A stretch of 64,000 nucleotides of DNA from Solwaraspora sp. WMMD792 (lineage in GTDB: Bacteria; Actinomycetota; Actinomycetes; Mycobacteriales; Micromonosporaceae): NCBI RefSeq assembly GCF_029626105.1, contig NZ_JARUBH010000009.1, positions 5,580,001-5,644,000 on the forward strand, given 5' to 3'. Positions within the stretch are counted from its first letter, which is position 1, and each line of letters begins with the position of its first letter. Shown piece by piece: positions 58,361 to 64,000 of this stretch. Made by a program: the position numbers and the translations under genes. Below the pieces are notes generated by a model. That model ran no database searches, was not told the origin of the DNA, and was given only the letters and a program-made list of their open reading frames with translations.

Positions 58361-58460
58361 GGTCCGTCCAGCTGGCACTTTCTCGGGATCACAGGCAGGT
58401 CGCCGCTGCGTACGGTTTCCCTTGTCAGCAGCCAGGACGATCTGCGGAAGAGGCGGCAGG

Positions 58461-59048
58461 ATGAGTGAGTGGGTCGATCCGGCCCTCGGTGACGAGGCGG
58501 TCGAAGCGGAACAGGGACTGGGCCCGAGCGGCGACCCGGGCCACGACGATGCCGGCTACGAGCCGTACGGCGACGGCCCTTACGGCGTCGAGCCGTACGG
58601 CGACGGTGGGTCCTACACGATCGTCCAACACAATCTTGACGGCTCCACCGACGTGCTGGTCGACCGGGACGGGGACGGCCTCGCCGACGTGGTCCTGCAC
58701 GACGGTGACGGCGACGGGCTGGCGGAGGCCGCGTACGTCGATGGCGACGGGGACGGTCGGCTGGAGAGCATGCTGCGCGACTTCGACGGCGACGGGCTGG
58801 TCGACGAGGTCAGCGCGGACACCAACGGCGACGGCTGGATCGACGTCGTCGCCACCGACACCGACGGTGACGGCCTGATCGACCAGGTGGCGGCCGACAC
58901 CGATCACGACGGACGGACGGACACCTGGGTCCAGGACACCGACTACGACGGTCGGGCGGACCAGACGCTGCGCGACGCCGACCAGGACGGCGTGCCGGAG
59001 ACGGTGACCTACCTGCATCCGACGGTCAACCCGTACGCGGCGAGGTGA
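58461..59048 (+). CDS. Cytosolic-looking calcium-binding repeat protein (DxDxDG repeats)
   Basis: 195 residues from ATG 58461 (GGAAGAGGCGGCAGG upstream). Residues ~50-180 hold about ten short repeats of the form (D/T)DxDGDGxxD (DRDGDGLADV, DGDGDGLAEA, DFDGDGLVDE, DTNGDGWIDV, DTDGDGLIDQ), the geometry of thrombospondin type 3/EF-hand loops that bind Ca. There is no signal peptide or membrane helix, so export would need a non-Sec route. A Tyr/Gly/Pro-rich N-terminus (GYEPYGDGPYGVEPYGDGG) precedes the repeats. Confidence 0.8.
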   Translation: MSEWVDPALGDEAVEAEQGLGPSGDPGHDDAGYEPYGDGPYGVEPYGDGGSYTIVQHNLDGSTDVLVDRDGDGLADVVLHDGDGDGLAEAAYVDGDGDGRLESMLRDFDGDGLVDEVSADTNGDGWIDVVATDTDGDGLIDQVAADTDHDGRTDTWVQDTDYDGRADQTLRDADQDGVPETVTYLHPTVNPYAAR

Positions 59049-59138
59049 GGCCGGGTCGCGCCCGGGTCGCGGCCGGCCGGATGGCACCCTACTGTCGACA
59101 TCCGCAGCTGTTGTGACTGAGCGATGGAGGGACCTGGG

Positions 59139-59387
59139 ATGACCGAGGCACAGGAGTCGGTGGAGACGCGCGGTGACGATCGCGTCGATCTGCTCAAGGC
59201 CGACACCAACAACGACGGGCAGACCGACGTCTGGGTGGTCGACACCGACGGGGACGGCAAGGCCGACATGTACCAGTTCGACACCGACGGGGACGGCAAG
59301 GTGGACATCACCATGGTCGATCTGGACGAGGACGGCACCCCGGACGAGGTGGTCGACGGCGACGGCGGGCACCCGCCGGCGAGCTGA
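59139..59387 (+). CDS. Small DxDxDG repeat protein, second of a pair
   Basis: 82 residues from ATG 59139 (GGAGG nine bases upstream; ATG 59124 alternative). Four to five units, KADTNNDGQTDVW, VDTDGDGKADMY, FDTDGDGKVDIT, VDLDEDGTPDEV, the same repeat as its 195-residue neighbour 90 bases upstream. No signal peptide. Probably a duplicate; Ca binding expected. Followed by a very strong terminator. Confidence 0.8.
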   Translation: MTEAQESVETRGDDRVDLLKADTNNDGQTDVWVVDTDGDGKADMYQFDTDGDGKVDITMVDLDEDGTPDEVVDGDGGHPPAS

Positions 59388-60045: not shown

Positions 60046-60894
60046 CTAGTTGCAGCGCTCCAGTAGCTGAACGGCACGCCACCGGGCAACCAGCTTCTCG
60101 TACGCCTCGCCGGCCGCCTCGGCGTCGCCCCGGCCGAGCGCCGCCAGCCCGGCGCTCACCAGACCCGGCGAATCGTCGGCCTCCAGCGTCTCGTCCGGCA
60201 GCAGCCGCACCAACCCACCGTAGTCAAGCTCCACCACCGACCGGGGATGGAACTCCTCGAGCCACCGGGCGCTCTCTTCCACCGCCTCGGTGATCGGCGC
60301 ATCCCCCACCGACTTGCGCAACACCGACAGTCCGCGCGACGCCCGGCGACGGGCCTTGGAGATCTCGGTCCGATAGCGCAGCGCCCGGCGCGCCCCAGTG
60401 ACGATCAGGTCACGCTCGGCCAGGTCCACGAAGACGAACCATCGCAACGGCACCCCCCAGGTGGCGGCCTGCTCGTGCACCCGCGGCACCCCGTGCTCCA
60501 GAACCCGGGCCCCGCTGCGCCAGTCGTCGATCACCGCCCTGGCCTGACCGGCCAGTACCGGCGGGACGAACGCGTCGGCCAACACCGACGGGACACCGTC
60601 GCGCGCGCTCAACGCCGCCTCCGCTACCCGCACCCGCAGGTTCCATGGGCAGACCAGCAGCGTGTCGTCCGACTCCAGCACGTACGCCTCGTCCGGCAGG
60701 TCGGGCAGCCGGGTCCAGCCCGCGCCGAGCGCCTCGATCACGGCCGTCCGCTGCCGGCCCGGCCCTTCCAGCGGGCCGACCGCGCGGCCTTCCCGCACGT
60801 ATCGGCGCCAGTAGACCTGACGCTCACGGTCGAACGCGGCCAGCGGCTCGTACACCCGCAGGTATGAGGCGAAGGAAGCGAAGAGGGACGGCAC
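60046..60894 (-). CDS. Conserved actinobacterial protein of unknown function
   Basis: 282 residues from GTG 60894. Soluble, alpha/beta looking, Trp- and Arg-rich ([90 protein letters not shown]). Proteins of this type are often found between bldC and the amino-acid dehydrogenase in actinomycetes, as far as I recall. No catalytic motif recognised. Confidence 0.7.
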
Positions 60895-62504: not shown

Positions 62505-62726
62505 ATGGGGCGCGGCCGTGCTAAGGCCAAGCAGACAAAGGTGGCCAGGGAGCTGAAATACCACTCCCCGAACACCGACCTCGCCGCCTTGCAGCGAGAG
62601 CTCGCCGGCAGCGGCAAGTCGGACCGTGATTTCGACGACGAGTACGATCCGTACCTCGACGACGATGACGAGGACGACCCAGCCGACGACGACCGGGGTA
62701 ACTGGACACCCTCATCGTCCCGCTGA
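62505..62726 (+). CDS. DUF3073 family protein
   Basis: 73 residues from ATG 62505 (GAGGGGG upstream). Begins MGRGRAKAKQTKVARELKYH, then NTDLAALQRELAG and a very acidic tail (DFDDEYDPYLDDDDEDDP). This basic-head/acidic-tail small protein is widespread in Actinobacteria, usually highly expressed, function unknown; it may contact RNA or ribosomes, which is inference. Confidence 0.92.
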   Translation: MGRGRAKAKQTKVARELKYHSPNTDLAALQRELAGSGKSDRDFDDEYDPYLDDDDEDDPADDDRGNWTPSSSR

Positions 62727-62826: not shown

Positions 62827-62870
62827 CATCCGGTGGTGCGTACCCCGAACGGGGTAGGCACCACCGGATG
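62827..62870. repeat. 44-bp nested hairpin
   Basis: CATCCGGTGGTGC (62827-62839) pairs perfectly with GCACCACCGGATG (62858-62870). Inside a G/G mismatch, TACCCC (62841-62846) pairs with GGGGTA (62851-62856) over loop GAAC. It sits between convergent transcripts and may be a bidirectional terminator or a palindromic intergenic element. Confidence 0.75.
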
Positions 62871-62902
62871 TCCGTCGCGCCAGGCGGGCGACTGATAGGT
62901 GC

Positions 62903-62934
62903 CGCCCTGCCCGGGGACGGGGCCGGGCAGGGCG
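62903..62934 (-). terminator. Terminator after the RiPP precursor
   Basis: CGCCCTGCCCGG (62903-62914) pairs with CCGGGCAGGGCG (62923-62934) around GGACGGGG, 24 bases downstream of the precursor stop on the minus strand. Confidence 0.7.
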
Positions 62935-62958
62935 CCAGATACGCGCTGGTCGGAGCGG

Positions 62959-63213
62959 TCAACGGGGGCGGTTGTTCCAGTTGTAGAAGGTCGGGATGTT
63001 CTCGAAGTGGTTCCAGGCGCAGACCGCGCCGTCGGCACCGGCTGCCTCGGCGCGACGCCGCCGGGCCTGTTCCGCTTCGGCGAGCAGCAGTGCCAGACCG
63101 TCCCGGACGGCGTACACCCGGTCCGCCACCTGATCGTCGCCACCTGCCTCGGCGACGGTGGCTCCCGGGGCCGCGCCGACCGGTTCAGGCCGCTGCCGGC
63201 TGGTCTCTGGCAT
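62959..63213 (-). CDS. Triceptide (cyclophane) RiPP precursor peptide, AmcA-like
   Basis: 84 residues from ATG 63213 (GGAGGGAG ten bases upstream). Residues 1-~64 are a helical leader rich in Ala, Arg and Glu (VYAVRDGLALLLAEAEQARRRR). From W67 the C-terminus falls on a three-residue register: WNH, FEN, IPT, FYN, WNN, then RPR. Four triplets start with an aromatic residue, and three of those end in Asn. Aromatic-X-X units are the substrates of cyclophane-forming (3-CyFE/triceptide) radical SAM enzymes, which join the ring of residue 1 to Cbeta of residue 3. The gene overlaps the SPASM maturase gene by 29 bases, as expected for a dedicated pair. No cleavage protease or exporter lies within the window. 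Confidence 0.8.
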   Translation of the reverse strand: MPETSRQRPEPVGAAPGATVAEAGGDDQVADRVYAVRDGLALLLAEAEQARRRRAEAAGADGAVCAWNHFENIPTFYNWNNRPR

Positions 63214-64000
63214 GGGCCAACACTCCCTCCAGTAGATGGATCTTGCTGTTACGGCAGTGGTTGGTCTCCGTACCATCAAAACGCCCGTGTTCGAAGTAAC
63301 GGTTGGCAGCGTGACCACCTCCGCAGAACCCGAAGTACGGGCAGGTGGTCCGGCATGCCTCGACGCCCGCCACGAACTCGGTGACCCAGGGTGTCCGTTC
63401 CGGCGTGGCGAGGATCTCGGCCAGCCCGCTGGCCAACACGTTTCCGCTGGTGAAGTCCCCGTACCGCGGGTCGGAGAAGCCGGCCAGCTCCGGCGAGAGC
63501 AGCACCACCGACCCGTCGTACCCGATGGTGGGGATCGGGTCGAGCTGGCGGGGCAGCACCTCGTCGGCCGTGCCGTCGAGTACGGCTGCCGCGTACCGCA
63601 GTGACCATTCCACCTCGCGCAGATGGATCCGCGGTGCCTGCCGCCAGGCTCCGACCAGTTCCGCCCAGAAGCCGGCGACGGCCCGGTCCGGCCAGCGGTT
63701 CGACCGGACGTTCACGCCCTCCGTCTCCTCGATGTTGACGCCCAGCACGTCACAGCCGAGGTCGAGGAAGAACCGGTACAGCTCGGTGGCCAGGCCGGGG
63801 CTCGGGTCGCTGACCACGCAGAGCGCCGAGAATTCGATCCCGTGCCGACGTAGCGCTTCGACACCGCTCCGGATCTGGTCGTACGCGGGCCGACCACCCC
63901 GGGTGTGCCGGCTGTCGTTACGCGCCCGCGGGCCGTCGACGCTGACGCTGACCCGGATCCGGTGTTCGCGGAAGAACTCGCACCAGGGGTCGTCGATCAA
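63185..64000 (-). CDS. Radical SAM/SPASM peptide maturase, C-terminal part (cut by the window end)
   Basis: 271 residues visible; the frame is open to the right edge, so the CxxxCxxC SAM-cluster motif lies outside. Visible: later part of the radical SAM barrel (HRIRVSVSVDGPRARNDSRHTRGGRPAYDQIRSGVEALRRHG, VNIEETEGVN) and a C-terminal SPASM-type domain with auxiliary-cluster cysteines in GVEACRTTCPYFGFCGGGHAANRYFEHGRFDGTETNHCRNSKI. The CPYFGFCGGG pattern matches cyclophane/GRRM-type maturases. The overlapping precursor with aromatic triplets indicates a triceptide-type enzyme. Confidence 0.85.
   Translation of the reverse strand: MIDDPWCEFFREHRIRVSVSVDGPRARNDSRHTRGGRPAYDQIRSGVEALRRHGIEFSALCVVSDPSPGLATELYRFFLDLGCDVLGVNIEETEGVNVRSNRWPDRAVAGFWAELVGAWRQAPRIHLREVEWSLRYAAAVLDGTADEVLPRQLDPIPTIGYDGSVVLLSPELAGFSDPRYGDFTSGNVLASGLAEILATPERTPWVTEFVAGVEACRTTCPYFGFCGGGHAANRYFEHGRFDGTETNHCRNSKIHLLEGVLAHARDQPAAA

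Follow-up and report, generated by a model that had tools for sequence, protein, structure and literature searches.

At the right-hand end of the window, by which is meant the whole stretch of 64,000 nucleotides analysed here (G000:C9:5580001-5644000 in the source genome), the minus strand carries a cassette that is a member of an already curated family, and its kind is already known. The explanation that best accounts for the observations as a whole, and one that we regard as very probable, is a two-gene AmcA/AmcB cassette of type 3a, with predicted ring chemistry and a suggested resident job in the cell. Judged from its genes, its product is probably a small peptide stitched into rings. Gene identity, motifs, conservation and synteny come directly from the analysis, and from these we infer the chemistry, the number of rings, the recognition of the leader, the processing and the role. 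The conservation of the core peptide is an aspect that deserves specialist attention, and a near-invariant core at a single fixed locus across most of the sampled genomes of the family, a group of soil bacteria, provides a good experimental handle.

The precursor, its maturase and their surroundings

The precursor gene amcA occupies positions 62959-63213 of the minus strand, with its ATG at 63213, and encodes an AmcA peptide of type 3a, 84 amino acids in length, whose C-terminus was read from the sequence as CAWNHFENIPTFYNWNNRPR. These 20 residues constitute the core (62962-63021, minus). They are preceded by a variable leader (63022-63213, minus) which contains, just ahead of the core, a conserved A-R-x-x-R-x-E stretch whose A, R, R and E columns do not vary in any of the 78 aligned loci. 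Against the curated model NF041722, for which the cut-off is 65, the precursor reaches 106.1 bits; this score was obtained on a 119-residue reading from an upstream GTG start, as given by a mechanical list of open reading frames. A ribosome binding site, GGAGGGAG, lies at 63223-63230 on the minus strand, 9 nt upstream of the amcA ATG, and the stop of the maturase gene ends at 63185, which makes the overlap between the two genes 29 nt long. An earlier, sequence-only reading of this DNA had described an 84-residue peptide ending in the triplets discussed below, a strong ribosome site, a 29-base overlap and the order maturase-then-precursor, and each of these was found as described. The order is the usual one. 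For comparison, 412 relatives were confirmed among 595 pattern stretches, and the 80 best matches to the window's AmcB were used (the best 80 of 412 loci), which by genus we take to be Micromonosporaceae and which are labelled so where they occur in the Vdh tree described below. In 80 of these 80 loci the maturase precedes and overlaps the precursor, and in 80 of 80 an SD-like word of 4-5 bases stands ahead of the start, both counts being based on starts chosen by a script, partly by that word.

The C-terminal 271 amino acids of the maturase AmcB are encoded at 63185-64000 on the minus strand, and the gene would end its upstream extension at 64357, beyond the window. In the genome it continues for 357 nt past the window edge as a 390-residue open frame (L027:5185-6357), of which the exact start codon is unsure. 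The full-length protein scores 507.3 bits against NF041718 (cut-off 425), and the window's 271-residue part alone scores 365.4 bits. The sequence-only reading had called the product a triceptide, with three-residue cyclophanes, and had proposed a search against the AmcA/AmcB families, a search for CxxxCxxC in the sequence to the right, and abandonment of the call if the N-terminus of the maturase lacked the radical SAM motif. Since both proteins score above the curated cut-offs, the triceptide call was right, and the rightward extension supports it as well: AmcB contains the motif as CNLDCSYC, and the radical SAM cysteines C41, C45 and C48 are invariant in 33 of 33 aligned AmcB rows. The further description of the enzyme as a SPASM maturase is only loosely correct. 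Pfam assigns Radical_SAM (PF04055, 60 bits) alone and detects no full SPASM domain in full-length AmcB, and TIGR04085 yields 16.1 bits (cut-off 27) when scored on the truncated window protein, but four C-terminal cysteines, C335, C339, C345 and C368, arranged as CX3CX5C-X22-C, are invariant in 33 of 33 AmcB rows and would fit one auxiliary cluster.

Beyond amcA lies a convergent DUF3073 gene (62505-62726, plus; PF11273, 85.4 bits), which stands outside the cassette and serves as a landmark of its chromosomal slot, and upstream of the maturase the window genome has purM. The interval that separates amcA from the convergent DUF3073 gene contains a strong inverted repeat (62827-62870, strandless) with 21-nt arms that are 95% complementary, and two others are found downstream of amcA, including a likewise strong one at 62900-62937. 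The inverted repeats in this interval probably act as a two-way terminator that has no T-run; a terminator scan requiring a T-run found none, and a promoter scan was likewise empty. Elsewhere in the window, two adjacent open reading frames beside bldC (58422-59048 and 59124-59387, plus) contain acidic DTDGDGxAD repeats which by eye are calcium-binding-like, and a 282-residue protein encoded at 60046-60894 (minus) has no Pfam match at E 0.01.

Conservation of the core and the predicted rings

Of 300 genomes in the family, 224 have the exact 20-residue core, as searched for with a degenerate DNA pattern from which the last base had been trimmed and in which the codons for Arg let in Ser AGY as well; a control pattern of the core written backwards gave no match among the matches listed. 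Given this frequency, the score of 106.1 bits and the lack of any AmcA_3a match in 14 control genomes, the amcA observation stands far above chance. Among the best 80 of 412 loci, the C-terminal ends comprise 72 exact cores, 1 core followed by Gln, 5 with FFN in place of FYN and 2 of type 3b. The 72 identical core peptides are encoded by 50 distinct core DNA sequences, and pS in the core is 0.34, so the possibilities that the conservation resides at the DNA level or is very recent were rejected. When the two 3b loci (L141, L142) are dropped from these 80 and the column counts and pN/pS are computed over the remaining 78, pN/pS is 0.0135 in the core, 0.56 in the leader, 0.31 in AmcB and 0.25 in DUF3073, the corresponding values for PurM and BldC being 0.22 and 0.045 (77 loci each). 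The minimum over the 66 tested 20-codon windows of AmcB is 0.072, which places all of them above the core, and 19 of the 20 columns of the core show no change. Ten precursors of type 3a were also read out of the 19 genomes that lie above the 3a cut-off without the exact core, and their core changes are limited to Y to F (seven) or the tail RPPR (three). Since the precursor found in the slot differs in several genera, as type 3b and further variants, the product is nevertheless not frozen everywhere.

The slot precursors were compared over 105 rows, consisting of the best 80 of 412 loci, the window and 24 others. The loci include probable duplicate genomes (L142/L207, L124/L225, L137/L223 and L141/L208), and those read singly exclude the 37 loci L028-L064. 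On the minus strand of the window, the first aromatic unit of the core is WNH (63007-63015), which all 78 aligned 3a loci share and which is represented by WRP, WRA or PRP in other slot precursors. It is followed by FEN (62998-63006), seen as FEN, FED, FSD or WTD in slot precursors, and by IPT (62989-62997), a spacer predicted to be linear, which is IPT in type 3a, AFPT, SFPT or VFTTQ elsewhere in the slot and xP[TGA] in AmcA_1 paralogues. Next come FYN (62980-62988), which appears across the 105 rows as FYN, FFN, FYQ, FYE, FWE, FTE or YYN, and WNN (62971-62979), which across the same rows is WNN, FTN or FSN and always aromatic-x-N. The tail RPR (62962-62970) takes the form RPR, RPRQ, RPPR, KPR, RPQR and similar among relatives. 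The five in-register triplets announced by the sequence-only reading are thus four aromatic-first units (WNH, FEN, FYN and WNN), and the fifth is the IPT spacer.

Several arrangements of these units occur in the slot: WRP-FED-AFPT-FYQ-FTN, which is AmcA_3b (L205-L209, L141, L142); WRA-FED-SFPT-FYE-FTN (L210); WRA-FSD-AFPT-FWE-FSN (L230); PRP-FED-AFPT-FYQ-FSN (L213, L214, L231); WTD-VFTTQ-FTE-FSN (L215, L216); and ESTGT-YYN-WNN (L218). All 105 slot precursor rows have the FYN-type and WNN-type units, and 104 have the FEN-type unit, which is lost in L218; this last count takes the WTD of L215 and L216 as a FEN-type unit and admits Asn or Asp at the third place. The divergent purM-slot precursors of L215, L216 and L218 are represented by RWTDVFTTQFTEFSNRPR and ESTGTYYNWNNRSR. 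Because spacers in the same slot can be 4-5 residues long, a single unbroken register is not a rule of the family. The strict three-residue frame is kept by the type-3a precursors that were read and by the AmcA_1 paralogues, but it is broken in 3b and the further variants, so that homologues without the triplet register, which the earlier reading had counted as evidence against itself, do exist in part of the family. A fixed register as the feature under selection was rejected, since same-slot precursors break the register while the units persist.

The bond in known 3-CyFEs links Trp or Phe with the beta-carbon of an Asn that stands two positions later, and the acceptors named in the available part of the source are Asn, Asp, Arg, Ser and Ala, His not being among them (PMC11002830). 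The persistence of the FEN, FYN and WNN units, taken together with this characterised chemistry, in which Asn, Asp, Arg or Ser accepts the bond from Trp or Phe, predicts three rings, which are likely at FEN, FYN and WNN; the WNH unit does not persist, and a ring there is doubtful. The earlier estimate of up to four cyclophanes is accordingly best kept for three of them. It is rather unlikely that all four aromatic-first units are closed: WNH is in register and invariant in the aligned 3a loci, as a fourth ring would lead one to expect, but its position is occupied in other slot precursors by WRP, WRA or PRP, the last of which has no aromatic residue, and His is absent from the acceptors named in the part of the source available (PMC11002830). 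The invariant C-A-W-N-H of type 3a, in which Cys and His stand four apart and which is absent in 3b, might serve to bind a metal or have a thiol function, with no ring.

The mechanism that we propose runs as follows. Translation of amcA would probably be coupled to the end of amcB through the 29-nt overlap, and AmcB would recognise the leader, perhaps by way of the A-R-x-x-R-x-E stretch. The enzyme would generate a 5'-deoxyadenosyl radical, the third residue in every aromatic-x-x unit would lose a beta-hydrogen, and the ring would be closed onto the aromatic first residue. FEN, FYN and WNN would most likely be stitched, with about 6 Da lost in all, and WNH perhaps, while IPT and RPR would stay linear. 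Removal of the leader, if it occurs, would fall to a protease encoded elsewhere. It is unlikely that the modified peptide is never cut and acts as a crosslinked small protein, leader included. Such a peptide would agree with the finding that ten Pfam-scanned proteins of the window genome include a single protease, trypsin-like and encoded about 10 kb away from amcB (L027:16753-17427), a distance beyond the 8-kb flanks of the other loci, but the leader evolves fast beside a frozen core, a pattern that a product consisting of the core alone would predict.

Distribution, inheritance and biological role

All 7 genomes searched from the genus have AmcA_3a, which also matched in 249 of 300 family genomes, 243 of them above the cut-off. 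A search for AmcA_3b, which cross-hits 3a, matched 3 of 345 genomes of the class, all from the window's family and none above the 3b cut-off. Close AmcB relatives (E 1e-45) occur in 50 of 298 genomes of the order, and 46 of the 50 belong to the window's own family. At E 1e-3 the AmcB search of the phylum was unspecific, matching 232 of 396 genomes with only 2 above the cut-off, both in the window's family, and it matched 12 of 14 control genomes with none above the cut-off. No precursor was recognised beside the more distant AmcB genes of the order (L198-L201). Downstream of the AmcB relative of one of these, from another family of the order, a domain split over two frames (L198:5777-6282) stands where a precursor would be, and is presumably an intramolecular-chaperone of tail-fibre type.

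The surroundings of the best 80 of 412 loci were compared using eight marker genes, so that "next" here denotes the next among those markers and not necessarily the next gene. DUF3073 comes next after AmcB in 80 of 80 loci, its match lying 38-1075 nt beyond the stop of amcA, and in 75 of 80 purM lies ahead of AmcB and points the same way, the pur block being inverted in 4 and the contig too short in 1. The inverted blocks, purM-purF-SCP_3 relative to amcB, are those of L132, L133, L137 and L140 (Catellatospora and Catelliglobosispora). Pairwise distances of AmcB and PurM are correlated over 78 loci with an r of 0.87, which 0 of 999 permutations reach; the comparable housekeeping values are 0.81 for PurM-PurF and 0.79 for PurM-Vdh, and all such pairwise statistics overcount shared history. 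The purM-DUF3073 synteny and the AmcB-PurM correlation disfavour horizontal spread as the main mode of transmission.

Among 20 genomes drawn from the 51 family genomes without an AmcA_3a match (G065 and G066 were also searched loosely for AmcA_3a), 7 have AmcB above the cut-off and 12 have no AmcB at E 1e-15, so the cassette is not universal and is dispensable in some lineages. In 6 of the 7, AmcB adjoins purM and the precursor is different or divergent (L213-L218; L217/L230). The 12 genomes without the cassette have DUF3073 in 12 of 12 cases, with Vdh adjoining it in 9 and purM within the 1.5-kb flank in 2; in one of them, L236, purM and DUF3073 face each other 416 nt apart with nothing AmcB-like between. 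In a Vdh tree of 104 rows, the 9 rows that lack the cassette fall in two places and require 2 changes, a placing made unsure by a long branch and unsettled bootstrap values. An early gain of the cassette followed by one or more losses fits these observations.

The frozen core, the fixed chromosomal slot and the vertical inheritance together suggest a constant resident job in Micromonosporaceae cells, which would make the product a physiological peptide passed down vertically and not a weapon. More specifically, and tentatively, since we put its probability somewhat below even, it may be a resident cofactor-, signal- or morphogen-like molecule whose structure selection has kept near unchanged since an early entry into the purM-DUF3073 slot; against a resident role, some genera lack the cassette and others have an altered product. 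It is improbable that the peptide is secreted as an antibiotic or for competition, in the manner of darobactin or dynobactin. AmcB does belong to a broad enzyme group with the maturases of dynobactin and darobactin, whose models match it weakly, at 114 and 66 bits respectively and far below the cut-offs, and these two products are described as three-residue-ring peptides with known activities, which counts in favour of an antibiotic (PMC12257519). The near invariance of the core, with its pN/pS of 0.0135, and a cassette that is common and syntenic within the family argue against it, as does the Pfam scan of ten proteins of the window genome, in which neither an exporter nor an immunity protein was seen, the flanks of all other loci having been checked for the eight marker genes only. 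The cores of competition peptides diversify, and PQQ and mycofactocin are examples of resident molecules derived from RiPPs. By analogy, the pattern of frozen core, fast leader, fixed slot and vertical descent is unlike that of competition peptides and resembles that of PQQ or mycofactocin, in keeping with a resident molecule.

Comparison with known systems

By sequence, the closest solved relatives of AmcB include the anaerobic sulfatase maturase 4k37 (E 2.5e-16, over AmcB residues 34-199 only) and the radical SAM domain of ChlB, 9gm3 (E 7.9e-14), which aligns over residues 37-369. Among curated maturase models, that of the GrrM/OscB triceptide maturases (TIGR04261) matches AmcB over nearly its full length with 250.3 bits, below the cut-off of 310, and the dynobactin/darobactin, FxsB, XyeB and YhhB models give 62-114 bits against cut-offs of 370-650. 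The precursors of the GrrM/OscB family are Gly-rich repeats.

AmcA type 1 (NF041721) is found at a second locus. Within the family, certain genomes of a different genus, probably Micromonospora, carry a second cassette of this type (L177:1483-2768, also L178, L180, L181 and, in shortened form, L204), and partial second AmcB matches were seen in G146, G149 and G069. The core of the AmcA_1 paralogue, FDN-RPT-WDN-KGK-FDS-RPG-WDN-WNK, resembles the window peptide in its aromatic-x-[NS] units, its three-residue register and its xP[TGA] spacers, but it differs in its FDN, WDN and FDS units and in its locus, and the accompanying AmcB is about 38-40% identical to that of the window.

No product, mass or crosslink came to light for this core. 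A literature search covering Micromonospora and Micromonosporaceae returned nothing on point about AmcA, AmcB or triceptides, the text of Phan and Morinaka 2022, who reportedly worked on actinobacterial triceptides, lying outside its coverage; the models NF041722 and NF041718 presumably stem from that work. AmcA type 3b (NF041723) has its slot and maturase lineage in common with the window, its AmcB being about 65-71% identical in alignments longer than 250 residues, and its peptide is similar in having FED, FYQ and FTN units and mostly an RPR tail. It differs in lacking the C-A-W-N-H start and in having a four-residue spacer, and the window peptide scores 38.1 bits against the 3b model, below its cut-off of 65. 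From AmcA type 3a and its AmcB (NF041722/NF041718) no separating difference was found: the window pair is a member of this family, and its precursor matches the model, "phane_AmcA_3a", at 58 of 58 positions.
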